From Parabacteroides distasonis ATCC 8503 (lineage in GTDB: Bacteria; Bacteroidota; Bacteroidia; Bacteroidales; Tannerellaceae): a stretch of 64,000 nt of DNA. The DNA lies in NCBI RefSeq assembly GCF_000012845.1, contig NC_009615.1:147501-211500 (forward strand), written 5' to 3'. The translations under genes and the position numbers were made by a program. Numbering within the stretch: position 1 is the stretch's first letter; each line of letters begins with the position of its first letter. Under the pieces are notes generated by a model. That model was not told the DNA's origin. It did no database searches and saw only the letters and a list, made by a program, of their open reading frames with translations. Positions 6,538-62,453 of this stretch are shown here, one piece after another.

Positions 6538-6613
6538 TTTAGGTCTACCCTAATCGCTCATTTAGGGTGTCCCTAAACGGGGGATTAGGGTGAGGGTAAA
6601 TGTGTGATTAGAT
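6538..6613. repeat. Intergenic 23-bp-period array, four units
   Basis: The core [T/A]TTAG recurs at 6538, 6561, 6584 and 6607, exactly 23 bp apart, with G/T-rich filler. The first two units also carry the complement CCCTAA about 10 bp on, so each unit is itself a dyad (TTTAGGGTGTCCCTAAA at 6561-6577). The last unit overlaps the stop codon (6608-6610) of the convergent DUF1080 gene. It occupies the whole gap between two convergent genes. Confidence 0.75.
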
Positions 6614-7996
6614 TTTAACTTTCGGTTTATACATATCCTCAGCCGTCAGGCCACATTCTTTCATCATGCGGATACTGTAAGACAGATCGCTGACGTTTGG
6701 TGTCACGTTGTTACTTCCAAACGTGAATTTAACGCCGGCGGCTTTCGCCTTCATAATGATCGCTTTATTTGGAATATTGTATAGTTCGTTGATCTCTAAA
6801 GCTTTTCCGCTTTTTGCCAATGCCTCGACGAAACGGTTCATGCGGGCCTCCGTCCAGAATTCGTCAAAACGCTTATCCATCGGAGATGGCAAGAAACAAG
6901 GATTTACATAGATATCTACCGGCTCTTCCAATACGGAGCAGATACGATCTACGATCATGTCCATATATTGCTCCTCATTCTCGATCCAAGTCTCTTCCGG
7001 AATCCATAGGCGGGTACGGCGACCTTTATTGTCCTTGAACGTCAAAGCGTCCGTAAACACATAGTCGAATTCTTTAAGAGTCTCGGGAGAGAATGTGGTT
7101 ATCCATTCGCGTCCTTCCGCTTGCATGCCAAGGATGAAAGGCTGTGAGCGCATCTCATTTAGGTAATCCATGACTTGTTGGTCGTTCGTGATTGGGAAAC
7201 CGATGCCGCAGTTCGGTGCGATCGTATAATTGATACCGGTCTTGCGGGATTGCTTAGCGGCAACTTCCTTGGTTAAGCCACCTTTTAAGTGCACGTGATA
7301 ATCTAATACCGGGAAATCCGATTGATGTAATTTAATGATCTCGTCATTTTGCTCATCGTTAGCTTCCGCCAATTGTGCGTTGATATCGATCGTGGATTCA
7401 TCAATTACGTTCACGGTGATGTTCTTGATCTGGATCTCACCGCTACCATCACTCTCTATGGCAAATGTCCCTTCCGATAATAAGGCATAGGCGTTAGCGT
7501 CCGTACGATATGGGGCGGTCGGTTGGATATACTCCACAACCGGTTCGCCGTTTATATTTACATCAATCTCTTGTCCGGCTACCCGGATATCCATCTTGAA
7601 CCATTGATCTTCTTTTACGAAGCTTTTGGTCAAATTCCTCACGGAAACAAGACTTCCTGTCATTTTCCACCAAACCTTATCAGCCCGGTCATTATTGATA
7701 GCGATACGATATCCTTTCTTCAAGGTCGGGTCCGTATGGAACCAGACGGCGCCTTTGCCTCCCGGGGTAGTACGTAAATCAAGGGTCAGATCGAAGTTTT
7801 TGTATTTGCCGTTTTTCAGTACGGCCAGTGCATCCGTACCTTTCAAGGTCATTATGTCGTCTTGAACGGAGACATCGCCTGTCATTTTCCATTTGTTACT
7901 ATCTTTGCCATCGAATAAGGTACCACTGCCGGAAACACTACAGGCTGTGGTCAGGACAAAGAGAAGGCCCATCGCTAGAATTGATAATTTTTTCAT
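6608..7996 (-). CDS. Lipoprotein: DUF1080 (3-keto-glycoside hydrolase-like) plus PHP-like metal-dependent domain
   Basis: The 462-residue protein has a lipoprotein signal (Cys19 in LTTACS). Residues about 25-195 form a DUF1080 domain, a concanavalin-like fold known in 3-keto-disaccharide hydrolases. Residues about 225-460 resemble a PHP/amidohydrolase-type barrel starting with a His-x-His metal motif (H234, H236 in LDYHVHLKGG). The C-terminus carries FTFGSNNVTP. A sugar-modifying role on the cell surface or in the periplasm is likely. It is divergent from a sugar isomerase-like lipoprotein (8152-9054), which fits a shared glycoside pathway. The exact substrate is unknown. Confidence 0.8.
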   Translation of the reverse strand: MKKLSILAMGLLFVLTTACSVSGSGTLFDGKDSNKWKMTGDVSVQDDIMTLKGTDALAVLKNGKYKNFDLTLDLRTTPGGKGAVWFHTDPTLKKGYRIAINNDRADKVWWKMTGSLVSVRNLTKSFVKEDQWFKMDIRVAGQEIDVNINGEPVVEYIQPTAPYRTDANAYALLSEGTFAIESDGSGEIQIKNITVNVIDESTIDINAQLAEANDEQNDEIIKLHQSDFPVLDYHVHLKGGLTKEVAAKQSRKTGINYTIAPNCGIGFPITNDQQVMDYLNEMRSQPFILGMQAEGREWITTFSPETLKEFDYVFTDALTFKDNKGRRTRLWIPEETWIENEEQYMDMIVDRICSVLEEPVDIYVNPCFLPSPMDKRFDEFWTEARMNRFVEALAKSGKALEINELYNIPNKAIIMKAKAAGVKFTFGSNNVTPNVSDLSYSIRMMKECGLTAEDMYKPKVKI

Positions 7997-8109
7997 GATA
8001 TAAATGATTTAAGTAATAATATATCCTCCAAAGATAACGAAAATTAAAATACAATGTCCTTTTTGAAGATTTTAACTTCCATAAAGATATAAACCTAAGA
8101 ATATAGTCT

Positions 8110-8117
8110 TACTTTTG
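8110..8117 (+). promoter_or_regulatory. Putative -7 box for the isomerase-like lipoprotein
   Basis: TACTTTTG matches TAnnTTTG and sits 35 bp before the ATG at 8152. The -33 region is weak. Confidence 0.45.
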
Positions 8118-8151
8118 TAAAAATTCTCAATCAAACTTAATTAATAGTACT

Positions 8152-9054
8152 ATGCAGAACAGACGTAATTTTTTGAAGCAAGCCTCTTTGATGCTTGCGG
8201 GTGGGTTGGTAGCCCCGCAGTTATTATCTTCTTGTGGCGGTAAATCAGGACAAGCTGCCGCTACAGCATCGGAGTCTTCTAAATATATAGGGCTTCAATT
8301 GTATTCTTTAAGAGACCTTGTAAAAGAAGAAGGTATCCAGAAAGTATTGGAAACCGCCGCTAAGATGGGTTATAAGAATCTGGAGACAGCAAGCTATGAT
8401 AACGGAAAGATTTACGGTTTAGCTCCCGCTGAATTTAAGAAAATGGTGAATGACCTAGGTATGAAGTGTACGAGCGCTCACCTTGGACAGGCATTTACGA
8501 AAGAAAAAGAAGCCGAGGTTATGAGTTGGTGGGATCAAGCGATTGATGCTCATAATGAGTTAGGCGTTAAATATATGGTTCAACCGTGGATGCCGGTTAA
8601 CGATAAGACTACATTGGATGACTTGAAGATGTACTGCGATTATTTTAACACGGTTGGTTATAAGACCGCTGCCGCTAGCATCGCGTTCGGTTATCACAAC
8701 CACGACTTCGAGTTCCGTAAGATCGACGATCAGTTGATCTATGATTTCTTGCTGGATAACGTAAGCCCGAACCACGTATTCTTCGAGATGGATGTATACT
8801 GGGTAATGATGGGTGGCGGTGATCCTGTCGCTTACTTGAAGAACCGTCCGAGCCAGTTCAAGGCTATCCATATCAAGGATGAGAAAGAGATCGGCGCAAG
8901 TGGCAAGATGAATTTCAAGCCTATCTTCGATCAAATGTACGCTAATAACGTAAAGGATTGGTATGTTGAAGTTGAGCAATATACAAACAATGATCCGGTT
9001 GCCAGCGTTCAGCAGAGCTATGATTTCTTGAATAAGGCTGATTATGTGAAATAA
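8152..9054 (+). CDS. Sugar phosphate isomerase/epimerase-like TIM-barrel lipoprotein
   Basis: The 300-residue protein starts with a twin-arginine-like motif (RRNFLKQ, residues 4-10) followed by a lipobox with Cys28 (LLSSCGG). It is therefore probably exported folded and lipidated. Residues about 42-300 form the AP-endonuclease-2-type xylose isomerase-like barrel, with metal-site elements such as GYHNHDFEF, HVFFEMDVYW, AIHIKDEKE and WYVEVEQYT. This family is often linked with DUF1080 proteins in sugar oxidation/isomerisation loci. The neighbour at 6608-7996 is such a protein, divergently transcribed. A rho-independent terminator follows at 9071-9110. Confidence 0.88.
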   Translation: MQNRRNFLKQASLMLAGGLVAPQLLSSCGGKSGQAAATASESSKYIGLQLYSLRDLVKEEGIQKVLETAAKMGYKNLETASYDNGKIYGLAPAEFKKMVNDLGMKCTSAHLGQAFTKEKEAEVMSWWDQAIDAHNELGVKYMVQPWMPVNDKTTLDDLKMYCDYFNTVGYKTAAASIAFGYHNHDFEFRKIDDQLIYDFLLDNVSPNHVFFEMDVYWVMMGGGDPVAYLKNRPSQFKAIHIKDEKEIGASGKMNFKPIFDQMYANNVKDWYVEVEQYTNNDPVASVQQSYDFLNKADYVK

Positions 9055-9070
9055 TCCGTTCGATGATAAA

Positions 9071-9110
9071 AAAGAAGAGGCTACTTCATTATCGGGTAGC
9101 CTCTTTTTTT
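9071..9110. terminator. Rho-independent terminator after the isomerase-like gene
   Basis: The stem GAGGCTAC/GTAGCCTC (9077-9084 with 9096-9103) is followed by seven T on the plus strand and preceded by an A-run. It can serve both the plus-strand gene ending at 9054 and the minus-strand HAD gene ending at 9119. Confidence 0.85.
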
Positions 9111-9118
9111 ATGTTCGC

Positions 9119-9874
9119 TTATTTGGAATACTCGTTCAATCGGGTGGATTTCGCAAGCTCGATGATTTGTTTCCAATCTTTAGCTAAGTTTTCCATATCC
9201 GGATATAGTAAATCCGCTCCGGCATCTAATAAAACTTGATCGGGGAGAGGTCCGGTGTTTACGGCTATCGTAAAGATATTGGCTGCCACGGCAGCTTCTA
9301 CTCCCATGGGAGCGTTCTCTACCACAAAAGCTTCGTTAGGCTTCACATGCGCTTTTTGAAGTCCCATTAAATAAGGTTCGGGGTGTGGCTTGCCATATTT
9401 CACGTCGAAAGCCGTAACCATTTTCTCTCGGTTGAAATGTCCCGGATAGGTATGGTTTAGCTTATCGATCAAGCTATGTTGGCCGGAACCGGTGACAACC
9501 AATCGTTGCAGTCCAGATGCTTCCACTTCTTTTAGAACCTCTGCGGCGCCGGTCATGGGGGCACCGTCATTATAGGTATTGAATAGATCCGCTTTCTCTT
9601 TATAGATCGTTTGCTTCTCCTCGGCGGTAGCGTCTCGTTGGAAAGTGCGTTGGTATAGCTCGTTGATCGTGCTTTCCCCAGTACGTCCTTCGAACATATA
9701 AAAGTCTTCCGGCCGAGAAGTTAGCTGATGGAGGGTCGCTACCTCATGCCATGCCCGTGCATGAAAACGCATAGAGTCATATAATACACCATCCATATCG
9801 AAAAGAACAGCTTTGGGAGAAAGGGATTCCTGCCTGTGTTTACGCAGATATCGGATAATCGCTTCTTGAATCAT
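9119..9874 (-). CDS. HAD-family hydrolase (beta-phosphoglucomutase-like)
   Basis: The 251-residue cytosolic phosphatase or phosphomutase has all HAD motifs: motif I LFDMDGVLYDS (Asp26 nucleophile, Asp28 acid/base), motif II LVVTGSGQHS, the conserved Lys in KYGKPHPEPY, and motif III VVENAPMGVEAA. A helical C1 cap lies at about residues 40-110, as in beta-phosphoglucomutase and sugar phosphatases. The substrate is probably a small sugar phosphate. It has its own promoter box at 9900-9907 and a good Shine-Dalgarno-like AGAAGG before the ATG. Confidence 0.88.
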   Translation of the reverse strand: MIQEAIIRYLRKHRQESLSPKAVLFDMDGVLYDSMRFHARAWHEVATLHQLTSRPEDFYMFEGRTGESTINELYQRTFQRDATAEEKQTIYKEKADLFNTYNDGAPMTGAAEVLKEVEASGLQRLVVTGSGQHSLIDKLNHTYPGHFNREKMVTAFDVKYGKPHPEPYLMGLQKAHVKPNEAFVVENAPMGVEAAVAANIFTIAVNTGPLPDQVLLDAGADLLYPDMENLAKDWKQIIELAKSTRLNEYSK

Positions 9875-9899
9875 GTTATTACCTTCTTAAAAACCAATA

Positions 9900-9907
9900 C
9901 AAAGGTA
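9900..9907 (-). promoter_or_regulatory. Putative -7 box for the HAD gene
   Basis: On the minus strand TACCTTTG matches TAnnTTTG and lies 25 bp upstream of the ATG. It suggests that the HAD gene does not depend on the promoter inside the segment at 10155-10424. Confidence 0.5.
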
Positions 9908-9988
9908 CGTAATAAATCGGAATTAACAGAAATGGGAGGAAAGCTTCTTGAAATTAAATAAATATGATATATAATGGAATTTCATTTT

Positions 9989-10133
9989 ATGAAACAAAAA
10001 TGGTTTAAATGGGTGCTTACTTTTGATCCACCTACATGTACACCCTAACCGGATTGATAAATTTTATAATTATCTGGATGAGTTGATAGATGTATTGAAA
10101 AATAAGGGATATAAATTTATTTCGTTGAGATAA
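9989..10133 (+). pseudogene. Decayed polysaccharide deacetylase remnant
   Basis: An ATG at 9989 opens a reading frame encoding MKQKWFKWVLTFD, which looks like the start of a NodB-type polysaccharide deacetylase (the family motif is TFDDGP). It breaks after about 17 codons. From about 10025 a second frame reads LIHLHVHPNRIDKF and then LDELIDVLKNKGYKFISLR before a stop, matching the typical C-terminal end of the same family. The middle, over 150 residues in an intact enzyme, is missing. I read this as an internal deletion plus frameshift. The identification rests on motif recognition only. Confidence 0.5.
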
Positions 10134-10154
10134 TTAATCAATAAATTATGACGT

Positions 10155-10424
10155 AGTTCGGTGAGAACTTAGTTGTTTAATCATTGCAAATATATGAATA
10201 TTTGGGGAATATCAAAATATCATATATTAAAAATCAATGCATACAGAAATATTATATACCTAAATGCAGGTATAATTGAACCCCTTTCAGATAGACAAGT
10301 GAGACTTTGGTAGAAATATAATTAATAAGAAATAGTATACAGTATTATGATATCACTTATTCATAGCAAGTTATAGCCTTTGAAAATTCGTTATTAATGC
10401 GCTAACTAGAGTTCTCACCGGACT
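10155..10424. repeat. Inverted-repeat-bounded segment, probable invertible promoter
   Basis: The left site AGTTCGGTGAGAACT (10155-10169) and the right site AGTTCTCACCGGACT (10410-10424) are inverted copies with one mismatch. Homology extends inward (TAGTT after the left, AACTAG before the right). Each site is a short dyad (AGTTC/GAACT) around an asymmetric 5-bp spacer (GGTGA or TCACC), the layout expected of a tyrosine- or serine-recombinase crossover site. The roughly 240 bp between them are AT-rich, hold no gene, and carry a leftward promoter-like pair (10187-10216). No recombinase gene is in the window. The two sites could instead be paired operators for one dimeric regulator. Confidence 0.5.
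10187..10216 (-). promoter_or_regulatory. Leftward promoter inside the inverted-repeat segment
   Basis: On the minus strand TTTG (10213-10216) and TATATTTG (10187-10194) are 18 bp apart, a near-ideal Bacteroidetes promoter. In the present orientation it points at the deacetylase remnant and the HAD gene. If the segment flipped, it would point at the HU-family gene at 10461. Confidence 0.5.
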
Positions 10425-10460
10425 CTTTTCTGGTGAAGAATGGTATATTTATTATCTAGT

Positions 10461-10736
10461 ATGAATAGAGGAGAATTAGTACAATCTCTTGTGGAAGAAA
10501 CAGGATTGCCGAAAAATGTTGTTAGGGCCGTAGTGAATGCGTTACCGACTGTTGTGGCGAAAGGAATACGGGAAGGAGAATCTATTTCCATGAAAGGATT
10601 TGGATCTTTTGTACCTTGGCAACAATCCGAGCGATTGGCACGTAATCCGAAAACAGGGGAGGAAGTAATGATTACTCCACGTGTCTCGGTCAAATTCAAA
10701 GCCGGGAGCGATTTACTTAAAGAATTAAATGAGTAA
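10461..10736 (+). CDS. HU-family DNA-binding protein
   Basis: The 91-residue protein matches the HU/IHF fold along its full length: helical start MNRGELVQSLVEETGLP, the conserved GFGSF turn, and the DNA-binding beta-arm (ARNPKTGEEVMI) with its intercalating Pro replaced in context by RNPKTGE. I chose the ATG at 10461 because HU proteins begin this way and the upstream in-frame codons are not conserved in the family. It lies 36 bp after the right recombination-like site, and a strong terminator follows. Its expression could depend on the orientation of the 10155-10424 segment (inference). Confidence 0.92.
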   Translation: MNRGELVQSLVEETGLPKNVVRAVVNALPTVVAKGIREGESISMKGFGSFVPWQQSERLARNPKTGEEVMITPRVSVKFKAGSDLLKELNE

Positions 10737-10753
10737 TAAAAACTATTCAAACG

Positions 10754-10791
10754 AAAAAACGGTTTCCTCGTGATGAGAAAACCGTTTTTTT
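10754..10791. terminator. Bidirectional terminator between the HU gene and pgi
   Basis: The A-run and ACGGTTT pair with AAACCGT followed by T7. It sits between convergent genes and works in both directions. Confidence 0.88.
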
Positions 10792-10806
10792 ATGGGGTAA
10801 ATCGTA

Positions 10807-12150
10807 TTATAAACGTGCTTTGATAGCTTCGCTTTCTTTCTCGTATCCCGGCTTATTCAACAGGGCGAACATATTCTTCTTATAAGCCTCGACACCCGGT
10901 TGATTGAAAGGATTCACACCTAACATATAACCACTGATACCGCAAGCTTTCTCGAAGAAATAGAACAACTGACCGATATAGAATGCGCTTACTTCTGGCA
11001 TATTAACCTTAATATTAGGAACACCACCATCTACGTGAGCCAACTGAGTACCTAATTCGGCCATCTTGTTTACCTCGTCTACATGCTTGCCTGCCAAGAA
11101 GTTCAAGCCATCTAAATCGGCTTCATCTGTAGGGACCAATACGCTATGATCTGTAGCTTCCACGGAGATAACCGTTTCGAAAATCGTACGCTCACCGTCT
11201 TGGATCCATTGCCCCATGGAATGCAAATCGGTTGTCAAATCTACGGATGCTGGGAAAATACCTTTACCGTCTTTACCTTCGCTCTCTCCGTAAAGTTGTT
11301 TCCACCATTCTGCGATATAGTGCAATTTCGGATGGAAGTTAGCCAAGATCTCAATCTTTTTACCGTTCTTATATAATTCATTACGAGTAGCGGCATAGAT
11401 AGCGGCCATATTATCAGCGAAAGGAACGCTCGCGTCTGTAGCTTTTTCCATGGAAACTGCTCCAGCAACCAAGTCGCGGATGCTGATACCTGCCACGGCG
11501 ATCGGAAGCAAACCTACCGGAGTTAAAACAGAGAAACGTCCACCTACGTTATCAGGGATGATGAAAGTCTTGTAACCTTCTTGATCTGCCAAAGTACGCA
11601 AAGCGCCTCTCTTAGCGTCCGTGATAGCTACGATACGATGTTTAGCCTCTTCCTTGCCAACAGCATCTTCCAATTGTTTCTTCAAGATACGGAAAGCCAA
11701 AGCCGGCTCTGTAGTCGTACCAGACTTGGAGATATTGATAATACCGAATTGCTTACCTTTCAAAACTTCGCTTAATTCATAAAGATAATCCTCTCCGATA
11801 TTGTGTCCGGCGTATAACATAACCGGGTTTTTACGGTCGTTTTGCAACCAGTCGAAGCTGTTGTTTAACGCTTCTACTACCGCTTTGGTACCCAAATAGC
11901 TACCACCGATACCAATGGCTACGACCACCTCACATTTAGAACGAAGCACGTTCGCCGTATTCTCGATGTCGGCCAACTCTGCGTCCGTGATAGAAGAGGG
12001 GAGATGCAACCAACCCAAAAAGTCGTTACCTGCTCCGTTACCGTTATGTAATGTGGCAATACATTCCATTGCCTTGGCCTCTTGAGCGTAAACCTGTTCC
12101 TTGGAGACAGTGCCCAGAGCCTTGTCGATGTTTAAACTGATGTTTTTCAT
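10807..12150 (-). CDS. pgi: Glucose-6-phosphate isomerase
   Basis: The 447-residue enzyme interconverts glucose-6-phosphate and fructose-6-phosphate in glycolysis. It has the short bacterial form with the signatures [22 protein letters not shown] (about residues 80-90), [12 protein letters not shown] and a catalytic region around [16 protein letters not shown]. It follows gpsA by 8 bp on the same strand, making lysS-gpsA-pgi one operon. It ends at a shared bidirectional terminator. Confidence 0.97.
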
Positions 12151-12158
12151 ATGCTATT

Positions 12159-14932: not shown

Positions 14933-15005
14933 CAAAATATTTCTGATTTATGCTGACTTATGTGGTAAAAGGTTGAGGTCACCGATCTTGTTTGTTCATG
15001 GATAA

Positions 15006-15064
15006 AGTCTCTTAGGATCCTTGGTGAAGTATCTTAGGTTTGTAGGCCAATGAACTTAAGACCC
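15006..15064. repeat. Intergenic 22-bp-period array, three units
   Basis: AGTCTCTTAGG (15006), AGTATCTTAGG (15028) and ATGAACTTAAG (15050) are exactly 22 bp apart. An outer inverted pair (GTTCATGG near 14994 and CAATGAAC near 15048) could fold over the array. It fills the gap between the end of the peptide cluster and the lysS promoter. No gene is seen in 14898-15098. Confidence 0.6.
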
Positions 15065-20164: not shown

Positions 20165-20260
20165 TGTGAAGTTTTTCAGGAGAAGGTTCTCTAAGATGTG
20201 AAGTACCTTAGAAAATAACAGTAAAATCTGTGAAGTAAATTTAGGCATAGTCAGTACGCT
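20165..20260. repeat. Intergenic 32-bp-period array, three units
   Basis: TGTGAAGT recurs at 20165, 20197 and 20229, exactly 32 bp apart. Part of the middle unit is a small dyad (CTAAG near 20191 with CTTAG near 20207). ACTAACTTTC also recurs at 20150 and 20283, on either side. The gap 19903-20392 holds no gene: it carries the cluster promoter, this array and the next array. Confidence 0.55.
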
Positions 20261-20276: not shown

Positions 20277-20354
20277 AGTAGTACTAACTTTCCTAAGTAA
20301 GTATATATCCTTTGCCACTAGCAGTATATATTCTATGGGCAAGTAAGTACTACT
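20277..20354. repeat. Intergenic 23-bp-period array, four units
   Basis: AGTAGTACT (20277), AGTATATAT (20300), AGTATATAT (20323) and AGTACTACT (20346) are spaced exactly 23 bp. The first and last are reverse complements of each other, so the array as a whole is roughly palindromic. It shares the word AAGTATATAT with the array at 62398-62453. Confidence 0.7.
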
Positions 20355-39370: not shown

Positions 39371-39444
39371 AGCCTCTTGTCGGATTCGAACCAACGACCC
39401 CGAGATTACAAATCACGTGCTCTGGCCAACTGAGCTAAAGAGGC
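39371..39444 (-). tRNA. tRNA-Thr (UGU anticodon)
   Basis: On the minus strand a complete cloverleaf is seen: acceptor GCCTCTT pairs with AAGAGGC plus discriminator T, D-arm GCTC...GAGC, anticodon stem with loop TTTGTAA (anticodon TGT), and T-arm with GTTCGAATCC. No CCA is encoded. Its 5' end is only 4 bp from the 3' end of ffs, so the two RNAs are probably made as one precursor. Confidence 0.95.
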
Positions 39445-39447
39445 AGG

Positions 39448-39545
39448 TGGGTAAGCTTACTACATCGCGCCGCTACGACCAAGTACCCTTGCTGCGGTCA
39501 AGCCCTGGGGGATTCCGAGGGAGCATGCCGTGTAGGACTTACCCG
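39448..39545 (-). ncRNA. ffs: Signal recognition particle RNA (4.5S)
   Basis: On the minus strand the roughly 98-nt RNA closes with GGGTAAG/CTTACCC and TACA/TGTA. The apical SRP54-binding region is present as CAGGGC-TTGA-CC-GCAGCAAGG, where the GCAGC and AAGG internal-loop elements are as in E. coli 4.5S and the loop is TTGA. The 3' side ends with the usual GCGATGTAGT before the closing stem. A strong promoter lies just upstream (39550-39579). It forms SRP with Ffh for membrane protein targeting. Confidence 0.88.
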
Positions 39546-39549
39546 GGTG

Positions 39550-39579
39550 CAAAAGTAGATATTATTTTTTACTTTGCAA
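39550..39579 (-). promoter_or_regulatory. Promoter of ffs
   Basis: On the minus strand TTG (39577-39579) and TACTTTTG (39550-39557) are 19 bp apart, placing the start of transcription at the first bases of ffs. The -33 box is embedded in AAACGCTTGCA, which is shared exactly with the tRNA-Tyr promoter at 59538-59567. Confidence 0.75.
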
Positions 39580-39707
39580 GCGTTTTCTTACTCTTGGGAT
39601 GATAATTGTTTATAAAGAATTGAAAACCTTATGCTTTTGGTTGTGTTAAAGAATGTTTTATGTGTTGTGGCCGATGGTTTATCAAAGAATGTTGATTTTT
39701 TCATTGT

Positions 39708-39786
39708 GAGGCAAAAATATTTTCATCATGAAGAAAAAGTATTTTCACCATGAAGAAAAAGTATTTTCATCACGATGAAAAAACAG
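39708..39786. repeat. Intergenic 22-bp-period array
   Basis: Units start GAAGAAAAAGTATTTTC at 39730 and 39752 and differ at two positions (ending ACCAT and ATCAC). A partial unit precedes (39708-39729) and another follows (GATGAAAAA at 39774). Each junction is a dyad of the form TTTTCATCAT/GATGAAAA. It ends 2 bp before the stop of the YhiM-like gene. The rest of the gap (39558-39707) holds the ffs promoter and nothing else I recognise. Confidence 0.75.
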
Positions 39787-39787
39787 T

Positions 39788-40834
39788 TTACTTGGAAGAG
39801 GTTCCGCTTTCCAATATGCTGACGATGGAGAACAACGTAAAGCAGATCGCTCCCAGTCCGGCCAATACCCGTGCGGGAATGGCATAATAACTATGCTCGG
39901 CCGCCATCTCGAAAAGGAAAGCGGAGAGGAAAAGGCAGAATAAAGCCGTGAATATAGGAATTAATGGAATCCGGTTGGCAAGCTTGAATTCTTCCCTCCA
40001 TATTTTAGACAGCAAGATCACCTTGCTGGAGATACTATAGCAAACTAATCCAAGGCCGATCATGATATATCCGGTTGAGGCATTAGCCGGGTCGCTATCT
40101 CCTAATACGAAGAGACCCCATATCAGACTGATAGATCCCATCAGGATGACAAAACGGTGCCATAGCCTTTTTTCCAATCGGGAATATGTGTTTCTTATTT
40201 GTCGGGCGATCGTGGCGACTAAAGCGATTAAGCTAGTGCAAATACATGCTAGTCCGGCCATCACGTGCCCGGCGACGAAGTATTGGGAATGCTCCTCGCT
40301 ATGCGCTAGCAACCGGTAAGCCCAAATCCATGCGACTATGGATATAAGAGATGCTACAAGGATCAAGAATAACCCTTGCCAAAAGTTGAACGCTTTATCC
40401 GGTATTCTGGGATCGTCGCTTTTGGCGTTCATTTGTATTAAGGTGAATCGGGTAGAGGCGGTAGCCGTTGTCGCTACGCATGCGGTTATAAGGCCCACCC
40501 CGCAAATGACATGGCCTGCGACAAAGTCTGCTGGCGCCGGTGAGGACATGAGTAAGATAAAGCCCGCCAGAAAAGTGATGGTTGCCGAGAGATATCCAAG
40601 GATAGGCAAAGCGAATCTGGCTACATTATCATATGTATGGATAATTTGACGAATAATGGTCGCTGCCGTAGCGAACAAAGCTATACAAATAAAGCCAAGA
40701 GAGAATACGACAGGTCCGGCGACGAATCTGCTGGAGTCCACTCCATAGTTAAAGACAAAAAATCCATAACCGAAACAAAAGAGGGCCATTAGCAATGGAA
40801 TCGCCCTGAATAAGACACTAATCCCGTAATTCAT
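39788..40834 (-). CDS. YhiM-like inner membrane protein (DUF2776)
   Basis: The 348-residue protein matches E. coli YhiM closely in length and motifs, notably LANRIPLIPIFTALFCLFLS and the C-terminal VLAGLGAICFTLFSIVSILE. YhiM is linked to acid resistance, with an unknown mechanism. Five to six related two-helix units recur, each with a version of FVAGHVxxGLxxIC (about residues 35, 95, 190, 260 and 325). I chose the ATG at 40834 because YhiM begins at the equivalent point. The ATG at 40864 adds only a basic stretch. Confidence 0.85.
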   Translation of the reverse strand: MNYGISVLFRAIPLLMALFCFGYGFFVFNYGVDSSRFVAGPVVFSLGFICIALFATAATIIRQIIHTYDNVARFALPILGYLSATITFLAGFILLMSSPAPADFVAGHVICGVGLITACVATTATASTRFTLIQMNAKSDDPRIPDKAFNFWQGLFLILVASLISIVAWIWAYRLLAHSEEHSQYFVAGHVMAGLACICTSLIALVATIARQIRNTYSRLEKRLWHRFVILMGSISLIWGLFVLGDSDPANASTGYIMIGLGLVCYSISSKVILLSKIWREEFKLANRIPLIPIFTALFCLFLSAFLFEMAAEHSYYAIPARVLAGLGAICFTLFSIVSILESGTSSK

Positions 40835-40969
40835 AACTTGTTTTTTATTTAGATTTTTCTTCAAACAGAGATGCGATCCTTTTTGTTCAAGAAGAATTTT
40901 AGAGGTTATACGATGTTTTTGCGTGTTATTTCATCATTTTTGTTTTTCTTTGCGGAAAATATCAGAGAA

Positions 40970-56314: not shown

Positions 56315-56318
56315 AAAT

Positions 56319-56855: not shown

Positions 56856-56856
56856 A

Positions 56857-57624
56857 ATGAGGGCGGAGGATTTATATCGTTTGATGGAGGAGCCTTCGGA
56901 ATTGACCGAGGGGACTCTTCTTGAGTTGCGACGAATCGTGGAGGATTACCCGTATTTTCAAGTGGCACGGATGTTGTATCTAAAGAATCTGGCCGTATTA
57001 AATGATATGAGTTTTACCTCGGAGCTGGAGAAGATGGCGATATTCTTGCCGGACCGGAAAAAGCTGTTCCAACTGATAGAGGGAGATAAATATGGCTTGA
57101 ACTCCCGTGTGGAGCATGAGCCGGATATGCGAAAAGAGGATACTTTCTCCTTGATAGACGCATTCCTCTCTAACCGTAACGAGGAACCGGAGCCTAAGAA
57201 AGAAGCCTCGTTCCTGTTCCAGCCATCGGTATCGTCAGATTATATGTTTTGGTCATTATCGAAAGAGGAAGAAGAGAAGCCATCTGGAGAGGATGCGGAG
57301 AATAGGCTTCGACATCACGACTTGATCGATTCGTTCATTAAAAATGACCAACAGCGTATGCCGGGTAGTGGGCTGGAAATCCGTGAGGAAACCAGCCGTG
57401 CGGAGACTCCAGAGTCGGTGAAAGATTTGGATGATGAGCAGTCCAAATCGCTGGAAGACTCGTGCCTTACGGAAACTTTAGCTCGGATTTATATAAAACA
57501 GAAACGATATGATAAGGCTTTGCAAATTATTAAAAACTTAAGCTTGAAATATCCAGAAAAAAATGTTTACTTTGCAGACCAAATCAGATTTTTGGAAAAG
57601 TTGATTATTAACACTAAAAAATAA
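56857..57624 (+). CDS. TPR-containing cytosolic protein
   Basis: The 255-residue protein has an acidic, low-complexity middle (about residues 90-200, charged Glu/Asp/Ser) and a C-terminal TPR (LTETLARIYIKQKRYDKALQIIKNL). I chose the ATG at 56857 (MRAEDLYRLMEEP), 1 bp after the lptE stop. It lies between lptE and secG in a conserved Bacteroidetes order. Function is unknown. Confidence 0.82.
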   Translation: MRAEDLYRLMEEPSELTEGTLLELRRIVEDYPYFQVARMLYLKNLAVLNDMSFTSELEKMAIFLPDRKKLFQLIEGDKYGLNSRVEHEPDMRKEDTFSLIDAFLSNRNEEPEPKKEASFLFQPSVSSDYMFWSLSKEEEEKPSGEDAENRLRHHDLIDSFIKNDQQRMPGSGLEIREETSRAETPESVKDLDDEQSKSLEDSCLTETLARIYIKQKRYDKALQIIKNLSLKYPEKNVYFADQIRFLEKLIINTKK

Positions 57625-57631
57625 AACTAAG

Positions 57632-58015
57632 ATGTACGTATTTATTTCTATCTTAATCCTGATCGCCTCTATACTATTAATCTTGATCGTGTTGATCCAG
57701 AACTCGAAAGGTGGAGGTTTGGCTTCAGGGTTCTCTTCTTCTAACCAAATCATGGGTGTACGTAAGACCACGGACTTTTTGGAGAAAGCTACTTGGAGTT
57801 TGGCGGGTACCGTAATCGTATTGAGTATCTTGATTACCGCATTTATCCCCAGAGCGGAGCATGCCGCTCAATCTGAGATCAAGCAACAAGTAAACGACGC
57901 TATCTCTATCGATCCGAATACGATCGCTCCGGACTTTGGTACGGCTCAACAACCGGCAGTTCCGGCAGAGGAAACTCCCGCTACTACTACACCTGCGGAG
58001 GAAAGCAACAGATAA
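57632..58015 (+). CDS. secG: Preprotein translocase subunit SecG
   Basis: The 127-residue protein has the two SecG helices (about residues 2-24 and 50-70) and the conserved loop IQNSKGGGLASGFSSSNQIMG. It joins SecYE at the inner membrane. A longer Ala/Pro/Thr-rich tail (about 95-127) is typical of Bacteroidetes SecG. It lies 7 bp after the TPR gene, and a terminator follows. Confidence 0.95.
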   Translation: MYVFISILILIASILLILIVLIQNSKGGGLASGFSSSNQIMGVRKTTDFLEKATWSLAGTVIVLSILITAFIPRAEHAAQSEIKQQVNDAISIDPNTIAPDFGTAQQPAVPAEETPATTTPAEESNR

Positions 58016-58040
58016 GAATCTTATTTGAAAACAATATAGA

Positions 58041-58076
58041 AGTCATGTCCACTAACAATGGATGTGACTTTTTTTT
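58041..58076 (+). terminator. Terminator after secG
   Basis: AGTCATGTCCA pairs with TGGATGTGACT (one mismatch) across a 7-8 base loop, then T8. Confidence 0.88.
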
Positions 58077-58124
58077 GTGCTACTTTAAGTGTAAGCTTCT
58101 TTAGGTCTTGATCTTTTCACCTAT

Positions 58125-58207
58125 GTGAAAAGATCGTATCACAAGGGTGAAAAGATCGTATCACGTATATGAAAAGATCGTTTCATCTTTGTGAGACGAT
58201 TATTACG
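58125..58207. repeat. Intergenic 22-bp-period array, three full units plus flanks
   Basis: GTGAAAAGATCGTATCAC starts at 58125 and 58147, and ATGAAAAGATCGTTTCAT at 58169, spaced exactly 22 bp. A partial unit (GATCTTTTCAC) precedes at 58110 and another (GTGAGACGAT) follows at 58191. Each unit is nearly self-complementary around GATC. The gap 58016-58308 holds this array, the secG terminator and one promoter, and no gene. Confidence 0.8.
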
Positions 58208-58265
58208 AATAGAGGTTTCTATCTCTTCATAGAAAGAAATGATTAGTTAAGTGGAATATTGTTTG

Positions 58266-58273
58266 TATATTTG
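58266..58273 (+). promoter_or_regulatory. Putative -7 box for the DUF4491 gene
   Basis: TATATTTG matches TAnnTTTG, 36 bp before the ATG. Confidence 0.45.
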
Positions 58274-58308
58274 TTACATATAATAGTAATAAGTATAAAT
58301 ATTCAGAT

Positions 58309-58629
58309 ATGGATATGATAAATTTTGATGGGTTGTTGATCGGTATCGTTACATTCTTGATTATCGGTCTGTTTCATCCGGTAGTCGTGAAGGCCGAGTA
58401 TTATTGGGGGACGAAGTGCTGGTGGATATTCCTTGTCTTGGGGATTTTAGGGGTGATAGCTTCCCTGTTTATAGACAGCGTGTTTGTGTCCGCTATTTGC
58501 GGCGTATTCGCCTTCTCATCGTTCTGGACGATCAAGGAGATTTTCGAGCAGGAGGAGCGTGTGCAGAAAGGTTGGTTCCCTAGAAATCCGAAAAGAAAAT
58601 ACCCTTGGGACGATAGTGAGGTGAAATGA
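58309..58629 (+). CDS. DUF4491 membrane protein
   Basis: The 106-residue protein has three hydrophobic helices (about residues 8-26, 38-56 and 58-76) and a basic tail with RNPKRKYPWDD. It matches the DUF4491 pattern (FDGLLIGIVTFLIIGLFHPV, FWTIKEIFEQEERVQKGWFP). Function is unknown. It has its own promoter box. Confidence 0.88.
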   Translation: MDMINFDGLLIGIVTFLIIGLFHPVVVKAEYYWGTKCWWIFLVLGILGVIASLFIDSVFVSAICGVFAFSSFWTIKEIFEQEERVQKGWFPRNPKRKYPWDDSEVK

Positions 58630-58639
58630 ATTCTTTTCG

Positions 58640-58647
58640 TATCTTTG
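58640..58647 (+). promoter_or_regulatory. Putative -7 box for the small basic protein
   Basis: TATCTTTG matches TAnnTTTG, 34 bp before the ATG at 58681. Confidence 0.45.
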
Positions 58648-58680
58648 CGCTCGTGAAAGCGATATAAAAGCAATAAAGCT

Positions 58681-58881
58681 ATGAAGACAAAGAGAAAAAA
58701 GCAAGATCCGTTAGTCGAGTACATAAAGGCTAACCGGAAAGGCAGTCGTGAGGCCGAGTTAGAAAACCACGGCAGGCCGGTCAGTCATAACCGGATTCAT
58801 GTATCGAAGAAAGTTTATAATCGTAAAAGAATGAAGGCAGATGCCCAGAGGCATCTGCCTTATTTGTTTTTAGTGGCCTAA
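58681..58881 (+). CDS. Small basic protein whose 3' end holds a terminator hairpin
   Basis: The 66-residue Lys/Arg-rich protein starts KTKRKKQDPLVEYIKANRKGS and carries HGRPVSHNRIHVSKKVYNRK. Short basic proteins like this occur in Bacteroidales. The last 16 codons overlap a perfect hairpin (58836-58859) followed by a T-rich tail, so either the coding frame was extended through the terminator or the hairpin has a dual role. No known function. Confidence 0.6.
   Translation: MKTKRKKQDPLVEYIKANRKGSREAELENHGRPVSHNRIHVSKKVYNRKRMKADAQRHLPYLFLVA
58836..58871 (+). terminator. Terminator within the end of the small basic ORF
   Basis: GGCAGATGCC (58836-58845) pairs perfectly with GGCATCTGCC (58850-58859) over a CAGA loop, followed by a T-rich stretch. 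Confidence 0.82.
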
Positions 58882-58890
58882 AAGGAGACC

Positions 58891-59223
58891 TTAGTTCGCT
58901 GTATTGTTATTGATCGGTGTCTTTTCCTTGAACCACTCCACTAGTATCCCATTCTTGAAGCTTAGGATGTAGTAGCCTTCAGAGTAGTCGGCTATCGTCA
59001 TGGTTACCGTCTTATAACTGATACTCTCTATCGGACCGTCGGGGGTTATCCGTGCGCCAGCCGACTCAAAATCCTTTCCTAGTATCGATATAACCTTTTG
59101 CTTGGTCATCCCTAGCTCTATCTTATGCATTCGGTTGTCCATTTTATAAGGATTCATTACCGTAGCGCATCCCATCAATAGGAACATTGTCAGCAACACG
59201 TATATCCCTTTCACCATCTTCAT
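58891..59223 (-). CDS. Small lipoprotein, BamE/SmpA-like
   Basis: The 110-residue protein has a lipoprotein signal (LLMGCATVMN) and a small alpha/beta body with KIELGMTKQKVISILGKD, the helix-turn typical of BamE/SmpA-like and DUF3192-like folds. Those bind partners at the outer membrane. This one has no readable partner. Confidence 0.75.
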   Translation of the reverse strand: MKMVKGIYVLLTMFLLMGCATVMNPYKMDNRMHKIELGMTKQKVISILGKDFESAGARITPDGPIESISYKTVTMTIADYSEGYYILSFKNGILVEWFKEKTPINNNTAN

Positions 59224-59295
59224 CTCTCTTTTTGTTATTTGTTGTATTGGGGGCTAAAGTAGACATTATCCCGGATATATAGTAATACGAGGATA

Positions 59296-59331
59296 TAAAA
59301 AAAGAGGAAAACCTTTCGATTTTCCTCTTTT
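59296..59331 (-). terminator. Terminator after tRNA-Tyr and tRNA-Gly
   Basis: AAAGAGGAAAA pairs with TTTTCCTCTTT. On the minus strand the stem is followed by a T-run (plus-strand A-run at 59297-59303). Confidence 0.8.
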
Positions 59332-59336
59332 CCTAG

Positions 59337-59409
59337 AGCGGAAGACGGGGCTCAAACCCGCGACCCTCAGCTTGGAAGGCTAATGCTCTATCAACTGAGC
59401 TACTTCCGC
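59337..59409 (-). tRNA. tRNA-Gly (UCC anticodon)
   Basis: On the minus strand: acceptor GCGGAAG pairs with CTTCCGC plus discriminator T, anticodon stem with loop CTTCCAA (anticodon TCC), and the T-arm with GTTTGAGCC. It follows tRNA-Tyr by 25 bp on the same transcript. Confidence 0.96.
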
Positions 59410-59434
59410 AATAATATGTTGCGAATTAAAAAGG

Positions 59435-59517
59435 TGGGCAGTGATGGATTCGAACCACCGAAGGCGAAAGCCAGCTGAGTTACAGTCAGCCCCATTTGGC
59501 CACTCTGGTAACTGCCC
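59435..59517 (-). tRNA. tRNA-Tyr (GUA anticodon)
   Basis: On the minus strand: acceptor GGGCAGT pairs with ACTGCCC plus discriminator A, anticodon loop CTGTAAC (anticodon GTA), a long class II variable arm, and T-arm GGTTCGAATCC. It is the first RNA of a tRNA-Tyr/tRNA-Gly unit with a strong promoter. Confidence 0.96.
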
Positions 59518-59537
59518 CCTTGTTCTTAATTGCAGTG

Positions 59538-59567
59538 CAAAGGTACGATTTATTTTGAAACCTGCAA
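59538..59567 (-). promoter_or_regulatory. Promoter of tRNA-Tyr/tRNA-Gly
   Basis: On the minus strand TTG (59565-59567) and TACCTTTG (59538-59545) are 19 bp apart. The -33 box sits in AAACGCTTGCA, identical to the ffs promoter. It adjoins the ribH stop codon (59572-59574). Confidence 0.75.
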
Positions 59568-59571
59568 GCGT

Positions 59572-60054
59572 TTAGGCAGAAAAATTTACCATTTTTATTG
59601 CGGTAACCGCTGCCTCGTCCCCTTTATTGCCATATCTACCTCCCGCACGATCCTCGGATTGCTGCATGGTGTCGGTAGTTAACAGGCCGAAAATGAAAGG
59701 AATATCGTACATTAAATTCAATTCTGTAATGCCTTGCGTAACGCCGGAACAAACGTAATCAAAATGTGGCGTATCGCCTCTTACGACGCATCCCAGAACG
59801 ATCACAGCGTCTAATTCTTTAGTCTCGGCCAATCTTTTGGCTCCAAAAGTCAGTTCAAAACTACCCGGAACTCGTTTAACTACGATGTTCTCCGGTTTCA
59901 CCCCGTGCTTTTCAAGCGTGTTGCAAGCACCTTCCAATAACTTCTCGGTAATGTTCTTGTTCCATTCAGCAACTACGATGCCGATGTTCATCTCTGAAGC
60001 ATCAGGTACGCTGTTGAAGTCGTACTCGGATAAATTCTGATAAGCTGTAGCCAT
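59572..60054 (-). CDS. ribH: 6,7-dimethyl-8-ribityllumazine synthase
   Basis: The 160-residue enzyme makes the riboflavin precursor and forms a 60-mer in many bacteria. It shows [50 protein letters not shown] (catalytic His) and [22 protein letters not shown] chose the ATG at 60054 ([13 protein letters not shown]), because the 15 residues upstream are not conserved. It follows a TPR protein gene on the same strand. Confidence 0.95.
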
Positions 60055-60130
60055 ACTTGTCTCTTTAAAAGAAGAGGATGCCTTGTTTGACCGAGACATC
60101 CTCTGTTATACTATATAATATACTGTTTAT

Positions 60131-60814
60131 TTATTTTCCTGCCGAAGCACGGGTGATATACTTATCGATATCGGATGCCTCCATGGAAGTGTAATACTTG
60201 TCCTTGATAGTCGTGTAAGCCTTTACAGCCTTGTCATACTCTTTCAAGTTCTCGTAAGCGATACCGGCCTTCTTCAAGTAAATCGGGCTGATTACCTCGT
60301 TGTCGGCCTCCTTAGCGGCTTTCTCGAAATAGCTGATTCCTTCTTTCGTATTACCCATGTTCACGTAGCAATCACCGATCAAGCCTGTAACCGCCGGAGA
60401 TACCATTTGGTCCTTTCCGCTGAAAGATTTCAATAAATCGAGCGCCTTCTGTGTATCGCCCATCTTGTAGTAACAGATACCTGCGTAAGCCTTCGCCAAG
60501 TTTCCGGCGTCCGTGCTTCCATATTGGTCGATGATAGCCTCGAAACCTTCATAGTCAGCTCCATTGCCGTTTAAAGCCAAGGCGAAAGAATCTCTGGCGA
60601 AGTATTGCTCGCCCTTGAACATGGCGGCGGCGGCTTTTTTCTCCTGAGGAACTAAATAACCATGCTTGATTCCCAAAACAGCTCCAACAACGAGTGCGAC
60701 AGCTATTATACCGTAAATAATCTTCTTTGAATTGTTTTCAATGAATTGCTCCGATTTGGAGACAATCTCTTCTACTTCTAACTCCTTGTTGGTGTCCTTT
60801 TCTTTAGTAGCCAT
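60131..60814 (-). CDS. Membrane-anchored TPR protein
   Basis: The 227-residue protein has one helix (about residues 34-52) after an acidic, basic start, and then tetratricopeptide repeats (AGICYYKMGDTQKALDLLKSF; GDCYVNMGNTKEGISYFEKA; AYENLKEYDKAVKAYTTIKD). It resembles YfgM-like periplasmic TPR anchors. ribH follows it after 76 bp. Confidence 0.87.
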   Translation of the reverse strand: MATKEKDTNKELEVEEIVSKSEQFIENNSKKIIYGIIAVALVVGAVLGIKHGYLVPQEKKAAAAMFKGEQYFARDSFALALNGNGADYEGFEAIIDQYGSTDAGNLAKAYAGICYYKMGDTQKALDLLKSFSGKDQMVSPAVTGLIGDCYVNMGNTKEGISYFEKAAKEADNEVISPIYLKKAGIAYENLKEYDKAVKAYTTIKDKYYTSMEASDIDKYITRASAGK

Positions 60815-60885
60815 AATGTGTTATAGTTATTTATTAATTTTATCGCTGATTTTAAGCCATACCATACGGTTGGCGATTCAAAGCG

Positions 60886-60893
60886 CAAAAGTA
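60886..60893 (-). promoter_or_regulatory. Putative -7 box for the TPR-ribH unit
   Basis: On the minus strand TACTTTTG matches TAnnTTTG, about 72 bp before the ATG. Confidence 0.45.
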
Positions 60894-60935
60894 GTTTTTT
60901 TTGCTGATATAATCTATACTTAGAAGTATATTTTT

Positions 60936-60943
60936 TAATTTTG
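60936..60943 (+). promoter_or_regulatory. Putative -7 box for recF
   Basis: TAATTTTG matches TAnnTTTG, 19 bp before the ATG at 60963. Confidence 0.45.
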
Positions 60944-60962
60944 TACGATTAATACGGTTTAG

Positions 60963-62060
60963 ATGATACTAAAGAAGCTTTCTGTTCTCAATTACAAAAA
61001 TATACTTCAGTCCGAGGTTATTTTCTCGCCCAAGATGAATTGCTTTTTCGGCAATAACGGGATGGGGAAGACGAATCTATTGGATGCTATTCATTATCTC
61101 TCGTTTTGCAAGAGTCATGTCAATACGCCTGATAGCCAGATAATAAACAGTGATCAAGATCTTTGCGTGGTGCAGGGTAACTATGATTATGAGGGACGTG
61201 AGGAGGAGATTTTCTGTGCCATGCGGCGTAGGCAACGCAAACAGTTCAAACGGAATAAGAAGGAGTACGACAAGCTGTCCGAGCATATCGGCCTATTACC
61301 GTTGGTCATGGTCTCTCCGGCTGATGCCGACTTGATCCGGGGGGGGAGCGATGAGCGACGCCGTTTTCTGGACTTAATCATCTCGCAGCAGGACAAGCCT
61401 TATCTGCATGCGCTTATCCAATATAATAAAGCGTTGCTCCAACGGAATACGTTGCTGAAAGATCAGAGCATGGATGCCTCTCTTTATGAGGTATTGGAGA
61501 TGCAGCTGGGTATGTACGGCCAAATCGTTTACGAGAAGCGGAAAAAACTGGTGGAGGATTTTACCCCGATCTTTAATGAGTACTACCAGACGATCTGCGG
61601 CTCTGCCGAGGAGGTAGGGCTACATTATATCTCGCAATTGGAGGAAACGGAGCTTGCCGGTAAATTGGCGATGAGCCGGGAACGGGATCGTATATTGGGC
61701 TATACCTCTTCCGGTATCCATAAGGATGAGCTGGAAATGACGTTGGGCGGGTACCTGATTCGCCGGGTTGGTTCGCAAGGACAGAATAAGACGTATCTGA
61801 TCGCCTTGAAACTCGCTCAGTTCGCTTTCCTAAATAAACGGGGACAGACTACACCTATCTTGCTGTTGGATGATATTTTCGATAAGCTGGACGCTAGCCG
61901 TGTGGAGCAGATCATCAAACTGGTCAGTGAGAATGGCTTCGGGCAGATCTTTATTACGGATACGAACCGGAAGTATCTGGATGAGATCTTATTGGCTATG
62001 AATCATGACTATGCCCTCTTCCGTGTGGAACGTGGCGAGGTACAACCTATGGAGGAATAA
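60963..62060 (+). CDS. recF: DNA replication and repair protein RecF
   Basis: The 365-residue SMC-like ATPase helps load RecA at gaps with RecO and RecR. It shows the Walker A FFGNNGMGKTNLLDAI, the ABC signature-type VGSQGQNKTYLIALKLAQ, and Walker B LLLDDIFDKLDASR. dnaA and dnaN are not adjacent, so this is not the classic origin cluster. It overlaps nothing and leads directly into the DUF721 gene. Confidence 0.95.
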   Translation: MILKKLSVLNYKNILQSEVIFSPKMNCFFGNNGMGKTNLLDAIHYLSFCKSHVNTPDSQIINSDQDLCVVQGNYDYEGREEEIFCAMRRRQRKQFKRNKKEYDKLSEHIGLLPLVMVSPADADLIRGGSDERRRFLDLIISQQDKPYLHALIQYNKALLQRNTLLKDQSMDASLYEVLEMQLGMYGQIVYEKRKKLVEDFTPIFNEYYQTICGSAEEVGLHYISQLEETELAGKLAMSRERDRILGYTSSGIHKDELEMTLGGYLIRRVGSQGQNKTYLIALKLAQFAFLNKRGQTTPILLLDDIFDKLDASRVEQIIKLVSENGFGQIFITDTNRKYLDEILLAMNHDYALFRVERGEVQPMEE

Positions 62061-62062
62061 GG

Positions 62063-62356
62063 ATGCAGAGAAGAAATACACAGACATTGGGTGAGGTGCT
62101 TCGTGACTTTTTCGAGGATAATACCGAGTTGTACGAGAAAATGATGGAGATCCGGGTTCAGCGTGCGTGGGGAGAAGTTTTAGGGCCTACGATCATGCAG
62201 TACACACGTAATATATATGTACGTGATAAGGTGCTTCATGTCTCATTGACTTCCTCCGTACTTCGTAGCGAGTTGACGCTTTGCCGGGAACGGTTGGTGA
62301 AAAGCTTGAATGATTACGCGGGTGCCTCGGTCATTACCAACATCGTTTTTCATTGA
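62063..62356 (+). CDS. DUF721 protein
   Basis: The 97-residue protein has the DUF721/DciA-like pattern (QTLGEVLRDFFEDN, VQRAWGEVLGPTI, LHVSLTSSVLRSELTLCRERL). In other phyla the DUF721 protein DciA loads the replicative helicase. It starts 2 bp after recF, a frequent pair. Confidence 0.88.
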   Translation: MQRRNTQTLGEVLRDFFEDNTELYEKMMEIRVQRAWGEVLGPTIMQYTRNIYVRDKVLHVSLTSSVLRSELTLCRERLVKSLNDYAGASVITNIVFH

Positions 62357-62397
62357 GTGTGGCTTTACCATTCGCAATATTACTTACAGGGTCAAGT

Positions 62398-62453
62398 AAC
62401 ATATACTGCCCAGCCTCGGTAAGTATATATGGCTTGACCCAGTAAGTATATAT
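62398..62453. repeat. Intergenic 23-bp-period array with hairpin
   Basis: AAGTATATAT occurs at 62421 and 62444, 23 bp apart, with an inverted version (ATATACT) near 62401. GGGTCAAG (62389-62396) pairs with CTTGACCC (62432-62439), so the array can fold. It fills the gap between convergent genes and shares AAGTATATAT with the array at 20277-20354. Confidence 0.65.

Follow-up and report, generated by a model that had tools for sequence, protein, structure and literature searches.

Families of short palindromic arrays with a 21-23 bp period in the gene gaps of Parabacteroides distasonis

Several intergenic gaps in a 64-kb stretch of the Parabacteroides distasonis ATCC 8503 chromosome (C1:147501-211500, hereafter the window) carry a few imperfect repeat units at a constant distance from one another, and the question raised by this locus is what such arrays are. 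A sequence-only reading of the window had reported seven of them with an exact spacing of 22 or 23 bp (32 bp in one case) and had proposed that they serve as sites for cooperative protein binding on one face of the DNA. The answer toward which the present study leans, at slightly less than an even chance, is that the arrays are families of phased, sequence-specific binding platforms on double-strand DNA for an oligomeric protein, and that they have partly spread as mobile elements.

Results and Discussion

A common period in gene gaps across the genome

The sample consisted of the window and 40 further stretches of 20 kb each (800 kb) from the same single-contig genome of 4,811,379 bp, referred to as G000. 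Gaps were defined as intervals of at least 50 bases between simple open reading frames (ORFs), which are not curated genes, and self-similarity was scored at each lag with dinucleotide shuffles as the null. Among the 323 gaps scanned (72.9 kb), 5 scored at least 12 at lag 21, 22 at lag 22 and 16 at lag 23, compared to a mean of 0.0 at each of these lags in 20 shuffles. The excess at lags 21-23 (43 lag-gap matches versus approximately none) is strong and exceeds chance; its harmonics appear as further peaks at lags 44 and 46. With the window left aside and a score of at least 13, the 40 stretches contained 34 matches at lags 21-23 and 6 at other lags from 12 to 41, versus shuffle means of 0.00 and 0.60, respectively (10 shuffles). 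The 34 matches occupy 32 of 300 gaps, which extrapolates to approximately 192 arrays in the genome (132-272). Coding sequence (779 kb, lags 20-24) contained 2 matches at lag 22, 4 each at lags 21 and 24, and none at lags 20 and 23. The exact spacing that had been claimed holds inside each array, where the period is constant, but the period ranges from 21 to 23 bp across families. Part of the lag-21 matches in G000, and especially in a second genome of this study, G011, are heptamer-like repeats (3 x 7) that form a separate repeat class. These AT-rich intergenic repeats, of the AATTCTC or AGTTGAA type, were seen at L056:61-97, L044:16512, L066:867 and G011 L267-L271, and they produce signals at lags 14 and 21.

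Sequence families and dyads

The 32 arrays that scored at least 15, including 3 from the window, were grouped by single linkage, which may have merged two types within the cluster of four, into 16 clusters with 7, 4, 3, 2, 2, 2, 2 and 2 members plus eight singletons. The earlier statement that the unit sequence is locus-specific and differs at nearly every site fails genome-wide, given that families recur and 24 of the 32 arrays belong to multi-member clusters; at least one "singleton", the array at window position 6528, has another genomic copy at C1:678741. The number of units per array ranges from 2 to 6, with 2.5 to 4.5 in 28 of the 32. The dyad symmetry previously ascribed to many units was borne out by column-permutation tests, which identified dyads in 22 of 28 arrays with scores of at least 17 (window included) and in 41 of 48 once 20 further copies of the families called types A, B and C had been added. 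Units abut or leave few variable bases, in agreement with the view that the arrays are not CRISPRs, and the 4 Rfam matches that reached gathering scores in the window, where cas genes were not searched for, included no CRISPR family.

Type A, with period 22, has TCAC-N4-GTGA centres separated by GATC. Type B (CTTACAATG-GG-CATTGTAAG, period 23) was found by one query in at least 13 places in G000, and its centre is present in both orientations inside arrays when examined by eye, while shared flanks were not seen by eye in 130 bases on each side. Type C (TGCCAY-N4-RTGGCA, period 22) occurs in at least 6 places, again with no shared flanks seen by eye. That 16 unrelated clusters (32 arrays) share a period of 21-23 bp counts in favor of the phased platforms proposed above. 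As a separate observation, the type B array at position 8262 of L065 is immediately preceded by a long palindrome, TTGTAGAGACGGGGCATGCCCCGTCTCTACAA.

Arrays of the window

All seven sequences reported for the window are present where they had been placed. Each gap region was tested against 1000 dinucleotide shuffles using the best of lags 21-23 (minimum p 0.001), and these per-locus p values are uncorrected for the number of gaps. The features are as follows.

6528..6611, no strand assigned: array of period 23 with about 3.6 units, TTTAGGG-TGT-CCCTAAA type (score 19.2, p=0.001)
14996..15064, no strand assigned: claimed 22-bp array (p=0.003 in its own gap, uncorrected)
20165..20260, no strand assigned: claimed 32-bp array (score 9.0, p=0.019 at lag 32, uncorrected)
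20277..20354, no strand assigned: weak array of period 23, of the AGTATATATCC family shared with the array at 62398 (p=0.009)
39695..39789, no strand assigned: array of period 22 with 4.3 units, TTTTCATC-ATG-AAGAAAA type (score 44.4, p=0.001)
58110..58207, no strand assigned: type A array of period 22 with four TCAC-N4-GTGA centres and GATC between them (score 29.4, p=0.001)
62398..62456, no strand assigned: array of period 23 with 2-3 units, AAGTATATAT type (p=0.001)

The arrays at 39695, 58110 and 6528 (originally given as starting at 39708, 58125 and 6538) are strong, while those at 62398 and 20277 are weak alone but form one recurring family. The array at 20277 matches L052:13005, L037:16004 and 62398 at scores of 29, 28 and 21 (null maximum 14), and 62398 matches 20277, L052 and L037 at scores of 21, 18 and 16 (null maximum 16); based on these scores, the two look like members of one family. 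The array claimed from 15006, without a relative above null among the sampled arrays, is inconclusive, and the 32-bp array at 20165, also lacking a relative above null in that set, could not be retained as part of the phenomenon. Tandem Repeats Finder (score of at least 30) reported period 22 in the window only at 39698-39782 and 58110-58194, with no entry of period 21 or 23.

The 6528 array (dyad p=0.005) fills the gap between two convergent stop codons and recurs at a second site, C1:678741-678814, and at one site in the genome G004. The 39695 array lies immediately past the stop of a minus-strand ORF at 39788-40864, has a Tandem Repeats Finder score of 114, and was matched in 8 of the 38 genomes of the genus set, G000 being one of the 8. 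The gap that holds this array also contains a Bacteroidales small signal recognition particle (SRP) RNA at window positions 39371-39551, adjoining a tRNA-Thr, on the minus strand. The type A array at 58110 has more copies in the genome, and an orthologous array with equal spacing is present in L067 and G004. The 62398 array sits between convergent ORFs, in a gap that is 109 bp long in G000 and L069 and 86 bp long in L067, i.e., one 23-bp unit shorter. Elsewhere in the window, a long gap deemed intergenic by the simple gene list contains a small open frame at 10440-10736, which may encode an HU-type DNA-binding protein.

Conservation between species

Type A was found in 4 of the 38 genus genomes (G000, G004, G007 and G023; E <= 0.001). 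Six orthologous loci were compared, comprising 17 arrays (6 from G000, 6 from G004, 4 from G023 and 1 from L067, the last being identical to the G004 array). Four centres 22 bp apart were found in 16 of the 17, and in the remaining array three centres were detected because a substitution hid the fourth. Because the script used linked only those centres lying 22 or 44 bp apart, this result tests for broken clusters and is not a free measurement of spacing. Changes were concentrated outside the core: GTGA/TCAC letters differed at 4 of 192 positions between G000 and G004 and at 2 of 128 between G000 and G023, GATC letters at 4/96 and 5/64, the remaining arm letters at 14/144 and 27/96, and the spacers at 32/96 and 34/64, respectively. 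Approximately 2% of core positions are therefore altered, versus 33-53% of spacer positions. The flanks differed at 246 of 1275 positions in the G004 comparison (with the duplicate L067 included) and at 205 of 744 in G023. In a second, unrelated family (GCTTGTCGATAATTATCGACAA), four units are present at one gap in P. goldsteinii, P. gordonii, P. faecis and Parabacteroides sp. BH.2_3; the array is ungapped internally across the four species in an alignment with a raised gap penalty, and the alignment is lost just downstream.

The behavior of the spacers bears on the possibility that the arrays are a mutational by-product, in which hairpin-prone palindromes would duplicate by template switching in steps dictated by replication geometry, without selection. 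Between G000 and G004, 3 of 24 spacers are exact reverse complements of each other, which points to hairpin-mediated inversion, whereas 0.54 would be expected when the 8 spacers differing at two or more positions are drawn from the spacer pool. However, none of the 16 G023 spacers were flipped (0.56 expected), the sampled genomes outside Bacteroidales show a weak lag peak or none, and the core letters of type A are conserved while its spacers are free. Such an origin without selection is therefore considered improbable.

Mobility of type A

The sequence-only reading had overlooked mobility, which is evident in at least one family: type A is a MITE-like (miniature inverted-repeat transposable element) mobile element with a leader and a tail. 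Matches to type A number 28 in G023 versus 13 in G000 (overlapping matches, both strands counted). A leader and tail, at least partial, were recognized by eye in 16 of the 20 G023 copies fetched from the 28 matches, the remaining 4 being flank orthologues of the G000 loci L005, L003, L006 and L007; some G000 copies, again by eye, also have them. Leader/tail matches (E <= 0.001) numbered 36 in G023, 3 in G004, 1 in G000 and 0 in G007. One G023 copy that has both leader and tail lacks a counterpart in G000, whose orthologous gap contains no type A element between flanks of 93-95% identity; this inserted copy adjoins a type B array common to both genomes. In another gap, a GTAGTACTGCAAC-type array in G000 corresponds to a type A element in G023, with one flank only 69-71% identical. 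Type A is thus dispersed and insertion-polymorphic as a MITE would be; its ends are ragged, with imperfect inverted ends visible only by eye. No autonomous parent was seen among five leader/tail loci read from a search of four genomes, each of the five carrying an array. Outside type A, L066:4443-4482 and L048:19891-19930 share approximately 40 or more identical bases (TAATTGAAAAGTGCACCGTATTT...) in two gaps and probably belong to a shared mobile element.

The strongest rival explanation is one in which the arrays are purely selfish, MITE-like minisatellites of the BrickBuilt kind, with no host function and with the apparent conservation resulting from recent spread and gene conversion. This would account for the leader-array-tail copies and their greater abundance in G023, for an insertion beside another array, for G023 copies with one, three or four centres, and for the one-unit difference at 62398, and a precedent is available from Porphyromonas gingivalis in the portion of a published description considered here (PMC4596501). 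Selfish spread alone, however, leaves unexplained the 21-23 bp period common to unrelated families, including types B and C with no shared flanks seen by eye, as well as the four units kept at one gap in four species. Overall, a purely selfish nature appears somewhat unlikely.

Position relative to genes

A gap class could be assigned to 30 of the 32 clustered arrays: convergent gaps contain 10 (3.5 expected by length), tandem gaps 15 (18.3 expected) and divergent gaps 5 (8.2 expected). The enrichment in convergent gaps is significant (10 of 44 gaps versus 20 of 236; Fisher p=0.013), and for the 15 tandem-gap arrays, the stop is the nearer end in 10 cases and the start in 4, with 1 tie. The arrays thus lie mostly nearer the 3' ends of genes, especially between convergent genes.

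Both the 3' placement and the convergent enrichment would be expected if the arrays were RNA elements, i.e., transcribed multi-hairpins that end or stabilize the 3' ends of mRNAs, including bidirectional terminators between convergent genes. The distance from stop to array is below 40 nt in 25 of 61 cases, and a predicted intrinsic terminator is present in 5 of the 36 longer distances versus 48 of 226 background segments; since lengths were unmatched, this avoidance of terminators before arrays is suggestive. The base changes argue in the opposite direction. There is no wobble bias (G-T 63 versus A-C 52, p=0.35), and local complementarity does not exceed cross-unit complementarity (0.69 versus 0.68, p=0.57), leading us to reject local RNA hairpins with compensatory change. 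Covariation consistent with fold-back is weak (6 of 48 arrays at p<0.05, Fisher p=0.03), and whole-array fold-back was likewise rejected as the main constraint. In addition, the arm letters of type A are themselves conserved, and hairpins would need no base-exact period. An RNA element is accordingly regarded as quite unlikely, and the earlier statement that the arrays are not ordinary terminators is supported.

Comparison with known repeat systems

The nearest published relative is the BrickBuilt MITE of P. gingivalis. In the portion of the original report considered here (PMC4596501), BrickBuilt consists of intergenic 23-nt imperfect tandem repeats without spacers. Its 19 elements belong to a single family, contain between 1 and 22.8 units and have IS5-like ends, for example GAGACCTTTGCA; a leader and tail are present in complete copies, dyad symmetry and stem-loops are predicted, and 22-, 23- and 41-nt tandem repeats had been noted earlier in strain W83. 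BrickBuilt copies are also annotated in resequenced P. gingivalis, according to the part of that report considered (PMC5771137). Insofar as these excerpts describe it, BrickBuilt resembles the present arrays in its spacerless intergenic tandem repeats of approximately 23 nt (21-23 here), its leader and tail (here at least partly seen by eye in type A), its dyads, its varying unit number and its host order, Bacteroidales; this comparison concerns period and layout. In contrast to the excerpts, many unrelated families are present here per genome, mostly with 2.5-4.5 units, and types B and C have no visible leader or tail. The BrickBuilt ends GAGACCTTTGCA and TGCAAAGGTCTC were absent at up to 1 mismatch within 350 bp around the 32 arrays and within 450 bp of the midpoint of 20 G023 loci. 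At up to 2 mismatches they were found at 2 of the 32 arrays (1.8 in shuffled sequence) and at 15 of the 20 G023 loci, where all 15 matches are the array unit GAGATCTTTTCA itself and none is an element end. Identity with BrickBuilt was therefore rejected.

Repetitive extragenic palindromes (REPs) and bacterial interspersed mosaic elements (BIMEs) are described, in the part of a report considered here, as short extragenic palindromes that lie chiefly behind genes, with convergent gaps also occupied, and that form several families per genome; REPs are tagged by GTAG or CGTC, and the families with a GTAG tag have a link to Y1 transposases (PMC3733652). As far as that part goes, the resemblance lies in the short extragenic palindromes, the gene-3' and convergent placement, and the presence of several families in one genome. 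The difference is that no phased tag and no Y1 transposase accompany the arrays: a GTAG or CGTC tag phased in at least 70% of units was found in 0 of 32 arrays, and PF01797 has no match in G000 (E <= 0.001), while being present in 8 of the 38 genus genomes. Mobilization by REP-associated tyrosine transposases (RAYTs) was rejected for G000 on both grounds. REPs are not known to follow a 22-bp lattice.

Plasmid iterons and phased operator arrays combine varied sequences with a period of approximately two helical turns and are bound cooperatively on one face. Iterons, however, are located at replication origins, with one set per replicon, unlike the approximately 190 arrays per chromosome in gene gaps extrapolated here. 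No description of such arrays in Parabacteroides was found among the open-licence PMC papers listed.

Taxonomic range

The range of the arrays was surveyed in 80 records of loci near one gene, in which a gap may count at two lags. Matches at lags 21-23 numbered 15 in 238 gaps of other Parabacteroides, 11 in 163 gaps of Tannerella and Tannerellaceae metagenome-assembled genomes, 7 in 138 gaps of other Bacteroidales, 1 in 21 gaps of Massilibacteroides and 1 in 19 gaps of the distasonis clade, with shuffle means (5 shuffles) of 0.20 for other Parabacteroides and 0 for the other four groups. In random stretches, G011 had 8 matches in 89 gaps (lag 21 accounts for 5, of which at least 4 are AT-rich or heptamer repeats), G014 had 4 in 95, and 13 other Bacteroidales genomes (18 stretches) had 2 in 157. 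Three matches, at least 1 of them a simple repeat, came from 82 gaps of other orders of the class, and none were found in 68 gaps of other classes or in 42 gaps of E. coli K-12. Based on these counts, the arrays are commonest in G000 and are present in other Parabacteroides, Tannerellaceae and some other Bacteroidales, while little or nothing was seen in the sampled genomes outside Bacteroidales.

Proposed phased platforms for a DNA-binding protein

In every family, an array has approximately four palindromic sites whose centres are a constant 21-23 bp apart. Such a site consists of two short conserved half-sites, so that half-sites recur approximately once per helical turn in alternating orientation. 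Under the reading favored here, that of phased binding platforms, an oligomeric DNA-binding protein would load several dimers onto one face of the helix; the placement in gaps and the type A insertion are likewise counted in favor of this reading. Non-autonomous mobility would account in part for the spread and renewal of the arrays, with the leader/tail family inserting like a MITE, and units may be renewed by gain and loss together with block replacement or inversion of spacers. Recognition of double-strand DNA is suggested because the arm letters of type A are kept while its spacers are free, type B centres are of mixed orientation, and no clear wobble or compensatory signal for RNA was seen; protein binding and any function in the cell we likewise infer. 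The cooperative one-face binding originally proposed fits the two-turn period, the position-specific conservation, the four centres kept at 22 bp in orthologous arrays, the lack of a G-T over A-C bias and the mixed orientation, but its cooperativity is conjectural, since no binding protein has been found.

Several observations weigh against these platforms. The sole regulator family tested as a source of the binding protein was Lrp/AsnC, and one such regulator per family was rejected, as the 4 matches in the genome are too few for the clusters. Unit number varies among the G023 copies of type A, two of which have single units. The absence of indels from type A arrays (0 of 552 aligned columns versus 7 of 1091 in flanks) is not significant (p=0.10), and the G023 flanks are likewise without indels. 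Between P. goldsteinii and P. gordonii, the GCTTGTCGATAATTATCGACAA array has changed at 18 of 88 positions; it is no better kept than its surroundings (approximately 80-83% identity), and a stretch further upstream is better conserved. The arrays at 58125 and 62398 have no counterpart visible by eye in the alignable gaps of more distant Parabacteroides, and those sites are therefore not essential. Gene conversion could yield the core conservation, given that every copy shares the core. Finally, the 58125 array is convergent only under one choice of right-neighbor ORF, and the convergent count is otherwise 9.

In a broader and rather unlikely version, the chromosomes of Parabacteroides and related Bacteroidales would be covered by such platforms, approximately 190 in each genome and divided among more than a dozen sequence clusters; a set of oligomeric proteins would read them, they would mark or insulate gene ends, and their families would have been born and spread as mobile elements. 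Such arrays are present in roughly one of ten gene gaps of a gut bacterium, and a physical period shared by unrelated repeat families suggests that one machine acts on all of them. BrickBuilt, until now a single case, is thereby placed into a wider class. If the machine is a transposition or replication mechanism, the origin of palindromic minisatellites would be explained; if it is a protein family, the arrays would represent an unrecognized layer of chromosome or transcript-end organization in abundant gut bacteria.

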